From a virus, in the IMG/VR virus record IMGVR_UViG_3300022752_000441, positions 1-21,857 of that record: DNA of 21,857 nt, one strand, 5' to 3'. Both the position numbers and the translations under genes were made by a program. The notes under the pieces are model-generated. The model was given only the letters and a program-made list of their open reading frames with translations. It searched no databases and was not told the origin of the DNA. Positions 11,772 through 15,264 of the stretch are shown here, piece by piece; within the stretch, counting starts at the first letter, position 1, and each line of letters opens with the position of its first letter.

Positions 11772-13397
11772 ATGGCAACTCCAGTTTTAAACAATGGTAT
11801 ATTTCTACGGGATACCAACTACCAAGCTAGTTCACACGTAGATTCTTATCACCTAGTAAACATGCTGAAGTCTGCTGAACCTATGGATATGGGTCCAGTA
11901 GATCTTTGGGCAATGGCACAAAAAGTAGAAATGCCTTTGTATCAAATGTCTTCCTTTGGTGGAAAGAATGTAATTAATGTAGATAATGCTCGTGGTGAGT
12001 ACAAATGGCAAATTCCAGTTTCTCAAGATCTTCCTTATGTTGTTGAGAATATTGAAAATCAAGGTGCTCAACTAGGTGTTGATGGTACTACATTTAAAAT
12101 TAAATTGAGTAAACGTACTTTTGGTCATGGTGATATTATCACTTATGATAAGTACAACGGTGTGGAACTTTATATTGTTCCCACTGAAGATGTTATTCCT
12201 GTTCCAGATGGTGTTATTTATACTGTTCAATTAGTGAACAATGATAACACTAAGTATTTGGATGGTGATAAGTATCTAAAGAATGGTACTAAGTTTTTCC
12301 GCAAAGGTTCTGCTCGTGGTGAATATGGGGAAAGATTCTCTGATATTGGAACATATGGTTCAGGATACAGGGAGTTTTATAACTTTGTAGGTGGTGCAGA
12401 AGCTCACGTACACTACTCTGTATCTAGTCGTGCAGATTTGATGATGAAAGGTGGTTTAAAACAAGATGGTTCAGTTCCTGTTACTGAAATTTGGAGAAAC
12501 TTTGATAAGAATGCTGACCCAGCTATCTCTAGTCTTGAAGGTCTTGCTGCTAAAATGGGTAAAGAGTATGTTAAAAAGGCTATCCAAGGCGGTACCCTTA
12601 CACGTACTTTCTTAACTACAATGGAAGCTGCTCACCTGACTAAAATTGCTACAGATATTGAAACATACTTAATGTGGGGTCATGGTGGACGTCTTAAACA
12701 AGATGGTCCAGATGACATCCGTTTGTCTGTAGGTCTTTGGAAGCAGTTGGATAACTCTTACAAGCGTATTTACAATAAGTCATCATTTAATCTTGACTTG
12801 TTTAAGTCTGAAATTTTTAACTTCTTTAATGGTCGTGTTGAATTTAAAGGACCAGATCCTCAAAGAGCTTTGATTGTACAGACTGGTATGGGAGGTATGA
12901 AAATGATTAATGAAGCTATTAAGAAAGAAGCGGTTAACTCAGGTTTGGTACTTAATGCTCGTGAACTTGGAGCTGTTACTGGTTCTGGTATGGATCTAAA
13001 CTTTGGATTTGCTTATACTAGTTACATTATTCCATTCTTGGCAAATGTTAAGTTTGTACTAAATCCAGCTTTTGATAATGTACATACCAATGACATTGAG
13101 AACCCAATCATTGATGGTTTCCCTCTGTCTTCCTATAATTTCATTATCTTTGATATCACAGATAATACTAATGATAACATCTTCTTATTGAAGTTGGGAT
13201 GGGATAATCAACTGAAATGGTTCTATCAAAATGGTACTATGGATTACATGGGACGTACACAAGGTTTCCAATCTTCTGGTAACTTTAACGGATACCGTGT
13301 ATTTATGACTCAGACAATGCCAGCTATTTGGGTTAAAGATCCAACTAAGGTATTAAAAATTGTTATGAGGAATCCAGTTACTGGAGGATCATTCTAA
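11772..13397 (+). CDS. Major capsid protein, HK97 fold, 541 aa
   Basis: It lies directly after the scaffold-like gene and before a strong terminator, with more regular codon choice, as expected for the most abundant virion protein. Its size, the beta-rich and glycine-rich middle, and C-terminal segments such as AYTSYIIPFLANVKFVLNPA and the ending IVMRNPVTGGSF are consistent with the major capsid protein of crAss-like phages (HK97 fold). The protein has no cysteine at all, in contrast to the tail genes. There is no obvious cleavable N-terminal delta domain, consistent with a separate scaffold gene. A short A-rich leader precedes the ATG at 11772. The family call is by resemblance and position. 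Confidence 0.85.
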   Translation: MATPVLNNGIFLRDTNYQASSHVDSYHLVNMLKSAEPMDMGPVDLWAMAQKVEMPLYQMSSFGGKNVINVDNARGEYKWQIPVSQDLPYVVENIENQGAQLGVDGTTFKIKLSKRTFGHGDIITYDKYNGVELYIVPTEDVIPVPDGVIYTVQLVNNDNTKYLDGDKYLKNGTKFFRKGSARGEYGERFSDIGTYGSGYREFYNFVGGAEAHVHYSVSSRADLMMKGGLKQDGSVPVTEIWRNFDKNADPAISSLEGLAAKMGKEYVKKAIQGGTLTRTFLTTMEAAHLTKIATDIETYLMWGHGGRLKQDGPDDIRLSVGLWKQLDNSYKRIYNKSSFNLDLFKSEIFNFFNGRVEFKGPDPQRALIVQTGMGGMKMINEAIKKEAVNSGLVLNARELGAVTGSGMDLNFGFAYTSYIIPFLANVKFVLNPAFDNVHTNDIENPIIDGFPLSSYNFIIFDITDNTNDNIFLLKLGWDNQLKWFYQNGTMDYMGRTQGFQSSGNFNGYRVFMTQTMPAIWVKDPTKVLKIVMRNPVTGGSF

Positions 13398-13410: not shown

Positions 13411-13452
13411 ACCTGGGGTGCTTACCGTAAGATCAGCTCCCAGGTCTTTTTA
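13411..13452 (+). terminator. Terminator after the major capsid gene
   Basis: ACCTGGG (13411-13417) pairs with CCCAGGT, extended by GCT/AGC after a bulge, and is followed by a run of T and TAT. It sits 14 bases past the MCP stop and probably ends or attenuates the head operon. Confidence 0.75.
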
Positions 13453-13483: not shown

Positions 13484-13642
13484 ATGGCAGGAAATTCAAG
13501 AACTCCAAAGAGTGCAAAATTTACAAGTGTTGTTAAATCTCCAACTGGTCGTACAGGCGGTACTAATAAGCCTGCTTCTACACAGTCTACAGCTCAAGTA
13601 TCTAAAATGAAAATGGGCGGTAAAGTTGGTAAAAAGAAGTAA
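13484..13642 (+). CDS. Tiny basic protein, 52 aa, Lys/Gly-rich end
   Basis: This 52-residue protein (MAGNSRTPKSAKF start) is rich in Ser, Thr, Gly and Lys and ends KMKMGGKVGKKK. It has no predicted core and is probably disordered and nucleic-acid or virion binding. It begins a short distance after the MCP terminator, has the recurring ACCAATTA leader at 13463-13470 and an A-rich run into the ATG. Similar very small basic ORFs occur again at 15452, 15608 and 15847. Family not recognised. Confidence 0.65.
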   Translation: MAGNSRTPKSAKFTSVVKSPTGRTGGTNKPASTQSTAQVSKMKMGGKVGKKK

Positions 13643-13649
13643 TATCCGT

Positions 13650-13732
13650 CCTTAGATTTAACTATCTAAGGCTCAACCTAAAGTATGCATACCGTGTTGA
13701 TCACACGAAGGGTTTGCAACCCTTGTTAGGTT
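13650..13732 (+). ncRNA. Compact multi-arm RNA structure candidate
   Basis: The gap 13643-13745 contains a perfect 8-bp hairpin (CCTTAGAT/ATCTAAGG, 13650-13671). Next comes a branched unit closed by AACCTAA (13675-13681) pairing with TTAGGTT (13726-13732). Inside are the short palindrome GTATGCATAC (13683-13692), the hairpin CGTGT/ACACG (13693-13707) and the hairpin AAGGGTT/AACCCTT (13708-13724). The 7-bp closing stem with three internal arms is tRNA-like in outline, but it is only 58 nt, lacks the conserved D- and T-loop bases and has no variable loop. It is more likely a regulatory, processing or stability element. Pairings were read directly; function is unknown. Confidence 0.45.
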
Positions 13733-13745
13733 CTAATATATAGTT

Positions 13746-14198
13746 ATGATATCTCTTAGACGTCTTATAATAAATCCTAAATCACCAGATAGAGCTTTAC
13801 AAATAGCTTATTCTGAGGCAGAAAGTGCATTAGCTAGACTAGCCCATGTAAATTTACTGTCTAAAGATATAATGGATATAAAGCATTATGAAGCTGATTT
13901 TAATAATACTAATACGATAGTTATTCCTATAAATTCTAAAAAAGGAATTATAGATATAGTAAATGCAGATGCTACAGCTACAAGTCTTTTTATTTGGTTG
14001 ACAAATAAAGAGATAGAATATGATCATGATAAGTTTTACATGCAGCTTTCTATATATTGTAATAATAGTAGTGTCACTCCAATAATTATGTCTAGGGGAT
14101 TTCAGCCAAATGAATTGTTGATAGAGATTAAAAATCTTAGTGCAGCAGCTAATTGGTCAAAATGCTATGCTTATTATGATCTTGTTAAGATAGACTAA
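13746..14198 (+). CDS. Hypothetical virion-region protein, 150 aa
   Basis: Family not recognised. The N-terminal third is helical (RALQIAYSEAESALARLAHVN) and the rest looks beta-rich (TNTIVIPINSKKGIIDIVN, KFYMQLSIYC). This mix is common in small capsid-decoration or head-completion proteins. It follows the structured RNA candidate and precedes a 338-aa gene, within the block of virion genes. A 6-bp hairpin (ACATGC/GCATGT, 14205-14221) follows its stop. Confidence 0.8.
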   Translation: MISLRRLIINPKSPDRALQIAYSEAESALARLAHVNLLSKDIMDIKHYEADFNNTNTIVIPINSKKGIIDIVNADATATSLFIWLTNKEIEYDHDKFYMQLSIYCNNSSVTPIIMSRGFQPNELLIEIKNLSAAANWSKCYAYYDLVKID

Positions 14199-14247: not shown

Positions 14248-15264
14248 ATGAGTAGTATTACATTAGTGGAAAAGTATCCACAAAACAAAAAATCTAGTAT
14301 TGCAATCCGCCCTTACTTTGAGTCCAATAAAGGGAACATGGGATTAGAAAAATATGGACTTTCGCTCTTTGATGGTGCATTTCATGAGGAACAACTTGCT
14401 TGTTTAGAAATTAATGGTATTAAAAGATATGTAACAGGTCTTAATGAGTTTGCTCCAGAAGTAAAAACATTAGAATCAGATGAACAAGCAGCTAAAATTA
14501 AACAAATTAGGTTTATTGTGGCACAGTTAGAAAAAGAACTAGCTGCCAATGTTATTGATCCAGCAGATGAGTTATTTTGGAATAAAGTAAAACTTTTAAG
14601 ACCAGATAATGATGAGTTTTGGGGAAGAATTAAGATTGCATGTGGTAATGAACCAGTTTTTTTGGAGCCTGATAAAGACCCTTATGATCTTATCAAACTA
14701 TATGCTATAGAAGCTGGAGGATTCTCAATTGTTGCTAAATCATTTGAACATGCTAGAATGATGTCCGTTCCTCCAAAGTTTTATTTAGATAAGTTAGAAA
14801 ATACTATATCTACTAAAACAGAAGTTAAAAAACTTAGAAATAAGGCTCTTTCAGAACTTCAAAAGCTCTTTGATAAAAACACTAATAAGTTATTTTATGT
14901 AGCTAAAGTGGTGGATACTAATAGTACACAATATAAAAAATCTACTCCTACAGATGTTCTTTATGATAATATGGATAAATACATTAATGGAGAAACAGTA
15001 GATACAAATAGAAAGCGTACTGCTGAAAAGTTTCTTGATGTGGTAAATCTTGATATGGAAACTCTTAAAATAAGAGCAATGGTTAAAGATGCTAGTTATC
15101 ATAAAATTATTGCATCAAGAGGAGATGGGTTCATCTATCATTTAGAAAGTAGTACAATGTTAGGAAAAACTCCTAGTGATGTAGTAGAATATTTAAAAAA
15201 TCCTTTAAATGAACAAATACTTGTAGATATTCAGGCAAAGGTTGAAAAAACTTGGAATAAATAA
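14248..15264 (+). CDS. Probable virion-associated protein, 338 aa
   Basis: This protein of unassigned family has a long charged helix (residues about 70-100, around AAKIKQIRFIVAQLEKELAA), a mixed middle with DELFWNKVKLLRPDNDEFWG (two related W/K/I-containing segments in tandem), and a C-terminal helical part ending in VEKTWNK. The repeated pattern FWNKVKLLRPDNDEFWGRIKI may reflect an internal duplication. Its place among post-capsid genes suggests a structural or head-interior protein. The leader is A-rich (aaaaccaaaaaaccaaac) with no Shine-Dalgarno. No enzymatic motifs are visible. Confidence 0.8.
   Translation: MSSITLVEKYPQNKKSSIAIRPYFESNKGNMGLEKYGLSLFDGAFHEEQLACLEINGIKRYVTGLNEFAPEVKTLESDEQAAKIKQIRFIVAQLEKELAANVIDPADELFWNKVKLLRPDNDEFWGRIKIACGNEPVFLEPDKDPYDLIKLYAIEAGGFSIVAKSFEHARMMSVPPKFYLDKLENTISTKTEVKKLRNKALSELQKLFDKNTNKLFYVAKVVDTNSTQYKKSTPTDVLYDNMDKYINGETVDTNRKRTAEKFLDVVNLDMETLKIRAMVKDASYHKIIASRGDGFIYHLESSTMLGKTPSDVVEYLKNPLNEQILVDIQAKVEKTWNK

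Follow-up and report, generated by a model that had tools for sequence, protein, structure and literature searches.

RNase P gauges the stack formed by the acceptor stem and T arm of its substrates, seems able to dispense with the D loop, and requires a loop resembling the T loop (PMC4919913). Hairpins made of the acceptor/T portion are cut by the enzyme at the canonical site, position 74 is in contact with the RNase P RNA, and phage RNAs belong to the known natural substrates (PMC11143913). The DNA analyzed here, referred to as the window, is a 21,857-base IMG/VR viral contig with a crAss-like morphogenesis cluster, in which terminase large subunit and portal genes are present. In the window, a tRNA-like element occupies the interval that separates the major capsid gene from the next long genes (Table 1).

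Table 1. Coordinates of the tRNA-like element, its parts and the neighboring features in the window.
Feature	Position	Strand	Basis
Major capsid gene	11772..13397	+	Pfam PF23898 Crass_capsid, E 3.7e-31; PHROG major head protein
Hairpin ACCTGGG/CCCAGGT followed by five T, 3' of the capsid gene	13411..13451	+	Direct reading; compared across relatives
52-aa ORF in the interval between capsid gene and element	13484..13642	+	Direct reading; similar small ORFs in close relatives
Leader hairpin, perfect 8 bp, CCTTAGAT-TTAACT-ATCTAAGG, optional companion	13650..13671	+	Direct reading
Core tRNA-like element, including N73 (T13732) and C74 (C13733)	13676..13733	+	Model match 78.6 bits, E 3.6e-19 (window itself among the sequences used to build the model); pair counts
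P1 5' strand, acceptor-like stem, partner 13725-13731, innermost pair A.G here	13676..13682	+	Covariation at several pairs, 64 elements
D-like hairpin GTA-TGCA-TAC	13683..13692	+	Stem exchanges GUA/UAC, AUA/UAU, GCA/UGC in relatives
Kissing contact, D-like loop GCA with TGC	13687-13689 with 13715-13717	+	27/27 paired, two covarying pairs
Optional anticodon-like arm CGTG-TTGATCA-CACG, 7-nt loop	13693..13707	+	Covaries where present; several relatives without the arm
T-like arm AAGGG-TTTGCAA-CCCTT, 5 bp and 7-nt loop	13708..13724	+	5/5 pairs changed on both sides, 100% of cells paired
P1 3' strand	13725..13731	+	
N73 and invariant C74	13732..13733	+	C in 64/64 elements; preceding base T/A/C/G
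150-aa ORF, start 13 nt downstream of the element	13746..14198	+	

A sequence-only reading of the window had described a perfect 8-bp hairpin followed by a closing stem that holds three further arms, and direct reading locates both exactly there. The closing stem (P1) has six pairs and an A.G apposition in the window; shifted one base outwards, it gives seven pairs (AACCTAA/TTAGGTT). The 8-bp hairpin had been counted as part of the structure. A hairpin of at least 6 bp, often with 8-9 bp and a gap of 2-3 nt to P1, lies directly upstream in 42 of 60 elements, and it is a frequent but optional companion outside the core. The D-arm-like and T-arm-like loops form a 3-bp loop-to-loop helix, a kissing contact that the sequence-only reading missed. 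The minimum-energy fold of positions 13640-13745 reaches -26.5 kcal/mol, compared with -17.2 ± 3.1 kcal/mol for shuffled sequences (z = -2.98), and 1 of 200 shuffles is as stable. This single-sequence statistic is modest, and comparison with relatives settles the reality of the structure.

A search with the capsid protein retrieved 80 related contigs, and two further searches added more. Most of the related contigs have a matching structure at the same place. A pattern search in which the loop bases of interest were left free, independent of the capsid gene, gave 78 stretches. In total, 64 distinct elements were gathered from crAss-like phages in IMG/VR, each downstream of the major capsid gene and ahead of the gene that comes next. 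A match is present in 19 of 24 long contigs; all but one of these have one strong copy, and the remaining one carries a single weak mini form. The other five have no match, and one of these, the contig of L063/L262, has a diverged form that was missed by the first model. The finding of one strong copy per contig rules out multiple copies per genome acting as tRNA-style punctuation; one genome holds a second, weak match whose P1 pairs poorly. On the capsid tree, the element occupies one large clade and a few separate branches (L062; L259/L261; L081/L182/L183).

Pairing holds in 97.0% of cells in the alignment of 27 relatives, with changes on both sides in 14 of the 20 pairs. When the partners were slid by one to three columns as a control, pairing was only 32-45%. 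The covariation score of these relatives is 0.441 compared with 0.190 in shuffles, and none of 500 shuffles reaches it. All helices covary, including the kissing contact, and the D hairpin itself shows the stem exchanges GUA/UAC, AUA/UAU, GCA/UGC, GAG/CUC and GGG/CCC. The sequence-only reading had made its proposal depend on compensatory changes and conservation among relatives, and both were found. The structure is real and conserved.

In sequence comparison, the kissing contact is the strongest evidence for a conserved structure. A D segment is present in 62 of the 64 elements, and the contact is made by GCA/UGC (39), GCG/CGC (10), GCC/GGC (4), ACC/GGU (2), single cases of GUA/UAC and ACG/CGU, and four versions with G.U pairs. 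L225 alone fails the standard register, with GUAU/AUAC possible instead. D segments set against the T loops of other elements with differing kissing bases match in 28% of cases under the same loose rule, and the near-complete agreement within elements is therefore far above background. With the kissing bases free in the search pattern, they are complementary in 35 of 35 distinct true elements and not complementary in three chance matches without P1. Beyond the kissing bases, hardly any sequence is invariant apart from loop position 2, loop A59 and C74.

The 7-nt loop is followed by 5 + 7 = 12 paired nucleotides of 3' strand; the next base varies, and after it comes C in all 64 elements. In tRNA, the T stem, acceptor stem, N73 and C74 follow one another at the same spacing. 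The 5 + 7 stems and T at loop position 2 were conditions of the scan; C74 was not. The tRNA acceptor/T geometry (7-bp stem, 5-bp stem, 7-nt loop, base 73 and C74) was found in 64 distinct elements; L016 and L037 have an 11-nt 3' strand instead of 12. The T-like loop has the consensus Y-U-N-G-Y-A-A, and its second base (position 55) is U in all elements examined, an invariance that rests independently on the alignments only, as the scans required T there. A true T-loop has A at position 58, and this A is missing. T predominates at base 73, and A or T stands at position 75 in 62 of the 64 elements. As a set, the 64 elements lack a CCA end and the tRNA T-loop consensus UUCRA, with a full CCA at positions 74-76 in two of them. 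The earlier statement that the CCA end and the conserved tRNA bases are missing stands for CCA and only in part for the bases: U55, C74 and the D/T kissing contact are kept.

The anticodon-like arm is absent from L003, L043, L046, L248, L253, L260, L262, L280 and others. Elements that carry the arm have a 7-nt loop in it, mostly NUGAUCA. This loop (arm at 13693-13707 in the window, and relatives) recalls an anticodon loop and is self-complementary. The smallest form, L259 (on the contig that also holds L055), has been reduced to a bare 12-bp hairpin, whose loop is CUCGUAA and whose tail is UC. Elements can do without the anticodon-like arm and without the D arm, and the acceptor/T stack, its loop and C74 are retained. 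Judged by pairing and spacing, the element is a mimic of the top half of tRNA; it is not a tRNA. The outline of a "shrunken tRNA" noticed in the window is borne out by covariation and by the geometry of 7 + 5 bp and a 7-nt loop.

Searches of the window and of 10 relatives gave no Rfam 15 family at gathering scores, nor anything meaningful at E values up to 10, and ARAGORN predicted no tRNA in the window or 20 relatives. These were the covariance-model and tRNA-finder checks that the sequence-only reading had suggested. An exact 23-base pattern from the window had no match in IMG/VR, and blastn of the element region against 50,697 phage records gave no match. The named or deposited relatives Leptolyngbya phage Lbo-JY46, Cellulophaga phi17:2, csAssE-Sib and MT838541 contain no model match. 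The pattern gave 17 matches in 84,980 bacterial and archaeal genomes; none was matched by the model, and they were taken as chance. None of the titles and abstracts found by a literature search of partial coverage describes the element. By these tests, the element is a new RNA family of a known kind, the tRNA-like structures, with an unusual elbow. The suggestion of an undescribed phage structured RNA is backed by the covariation and by the stem and loop geometry.

The distance from the capsid stop codon to the element ranges from 34 to 865 nt among relatives because optional ORFs come and go. The distance from the element to the next start codon is usually 13-77 nt (median 36 nt), irrespective of which ORF comes next. 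The element sits 34-55 nt past the capsid stop in some genomes, which therefore leaves little space for a separate promoter. The fold, kissing contact, near-constant geometry, invariant C and this location are established at the level of sequence comparison.

Several other features were observed around the element. The 52-aa ORF (13484-13642) is lysine-rich (MAGNSRTPKSAKF...), has been gained or lost among relatives between the capsid gene and the element, and has no family match in PHROG or Pfam. The capsid gene of these phages is followed by that of a strongly conserved 338-aa protein (VEKYPQN...; 14248-15264), which has no Pfam, PHROG or credible PDB sequence match. Close relatives of the window have a hairpin CAGTAC(C/T)...TTACCGTAAGATCAG...GGTCTTT directly after the capsid stop (window 13411-13451), and its loop, ACCGTAAGATC or ACCATAAGAAC, is conserved beyond the needs of a plain terminator. 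A sequence beginning ATACAAATGAAAAAAATAAGTTTAGAAAAATCCGAAGAAATAATAAGG... lies directly 3' of the capsid gene in several genomes (L010, L015, L047) and resembles an endonuclease-type insertion. A second, distinct conserved RNA-like stretch, AACAGTACTCAG...GGATAGC..ACCAG..CTGGCTAAAACACCC...CTGAGTC with the closing stem ACTCAG/CTGAGT, occurs between the capsid gene and the element in L190, L211, L188, L187, L246, L152 and L191, located 58 nt past the capsid gene in L188. It has no Rfam match in the loci tested, including L025 (same contig as L246).

The element does not resemble an intrinsic terminator: TTCTAATATATAG comes after it in the window, and most relatives lack a T-run at this place. A T-run of at least five follows the capsid gene in 12 of 86 element-bearing genomes compared with 32 of 43 genomes without the element; this is a plain T-run count, with element labels that include hand corrections and a few doubtful loci. 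The window has both the element and a T5 run. The missing T-run was considered as support for processing in place of termination and then dropped: the element label needs only seven changes on the capsid tree, and an independent-pairs test on that tree had too few label changes to give support. The association is not counted as support because it is not phylogenetically independent.

Among the functions that the sequence-only reading had offered, a putative processing signal for RNase P or RNase Z is the best supported. We propose, with a probability that we place slightly below even, that the late polycistronic mRNA carries in this element a cis-acting tRNA mimic, probably cut by host RNase P, which would separate the capsid message from the downstream message. 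We infer that transcription probably runs through the site, and in the same way we infer the enzyme, the cut and its purpose. The 12-bp acceptor/T stack, the T-like 7-nt loop, the elbow locked by the kissing contact and N73-C74 would imitate the top half of tRNA, and a host tRNA-processing enzyme, foremost RNase P, would recognize them. The predicted cut lies at the 5' edge of P1, about 13675/13676. It would separate the two messages; the upstream product might next be shortened as far as the hairpins that follow the capsid gene, and a compact structured 5' end would open the downstream message.

A stack of tRNA length with a T-loop-like loop, as RNase P requires (PMC4919913), is present in the element. 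Of the RCCA end, which base-pairs with the RNA of RNase P, only C74 is kept, and the contact would be partial because CCA is incomplete. As the element fits the RNase P ruler except for the full CCA, we rank RNase P first among the candidate enzymes, with RNase Z as its rival. The 11-nt strand in two relatives, the lack of A58 and the uninformative T-run link count against RNase P. In addition, P1 in some cases continues pairing upstream of its first base, and the cut site could become less sharp.

The spacing to the neighboring genes also suits a 5'-leader of the downstream gene, in which the element would be a structured 5' end or intercistronic block for stabilization or translation control and not a processing substrate: the next start is near (median 36 nt) and the capsid gene is at 34-865 nt. 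We consider this unlikely, since it leaves the tRNA spacing, the invariant C two bases past P1 and the reduction to a minihelix unexplained. Recognition on the 3' side, by RNase Z cutting after N73 or by a CCA-adding or other elbow-binding enzyme, appears improbable. The elbow and acceptor/T stack are the ruler of RNase Z and CCA-adding enzymes too (PMC4919913), and the full CCA that blocks RNase Z is mostly absent, but such recognition has no obvious need for an invariant C74.

The self-complementary arm loop UGAUCA raises the idea of a free small RNA that forms a homodimer or complex, and the loop core remains self-complementary in the variants GAUC, GGCC, GUAC and UUAA. Given the conserved G and C, however, only two inner-base changes are independent, and the palindrome could be chance; the arm is also absent or altered in several relatives, so that we regard this idea as distinctly improbable. 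A small self-cleaving ribozyme would likewise be compact, pseudoknotted and intercistronic, but almost no invariant sequence exists beyond the kissing bases, one form is a plain hairpin and no ribozyme family matches, which makes a ribozyme very improbable. Finally, the single-sequence z-score of only about -3 would be compatible with a chance structure without function, and this is refuted because P1, the outer arms and the kissing contact all show compensatory changes and none of the 500 shuffles reaches the covariation score, leaving it a negligible probability.

The RNase P-cut mimic in the late mRNA would have a wider meaning, which we put forward tentatively and as somewhat less probable than not. 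A crAss-like phage lineage may carry its own class of tRNA top-half mimic, used once per genome as mRNA punctuation after the capsid gene. Its elbow would be a re-codable 3-bp kissing helix in place of the tRNA elbow bases, and its living intermediates, four-armed, three-armed and bare minihelix, would show how far a tRNA can be pared down with the processing ruler still in place. If so, crAss-like phages split their late messages with the host tRNA-processing machinery, and a single transcript could yield far more capsid than neighboring proteins. The natural gradation from four arms down to a bare hairpin offers ready substrates for asking what tRNA-processing enzymes measure. The covariation-backed family, absent from Rfam 15, is usable for annotating an abundant phage group.

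Compared with tRNA, the element shares the directly joined 7-bp and 5-bp stems, the 7-nt loop, U55, the D/T loop contact, a free base 73 and C74. It differs in its elbow, a complementary 3-bp kissing helix whose sequence changes freely, and in lacking CCA, A58 and the two-base linker ahead of the D arm. Its D arm is stunted and its anticodon-like arm is absent or short, and it is not chargeable as it stands. Like the phage substrates of RNase P (PMC11143913), it is a tRNA-shaped or T-arm-bearing structure within a probable longer transcript; in contrast to them, it is a conserved family at one fixed genome place with an incomplete CCA, and its cleavage is a prediction. The ornate RNAs GOLLD, ROOL and OLE of phages and bacteria are likewise structured RNAs from comparative genomics, some of them homo-oligomeric (PMC12286853), but they are very large, whereas the element has about 60 nt. 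AT1, the tandem acceptor/T-arm model hairpin used with RNase P, has the same 12-bp stack and 7-nt loop as the L259 form (PMC11143913); it was man-made from E. coli tRNA-Phe and carries CCA.
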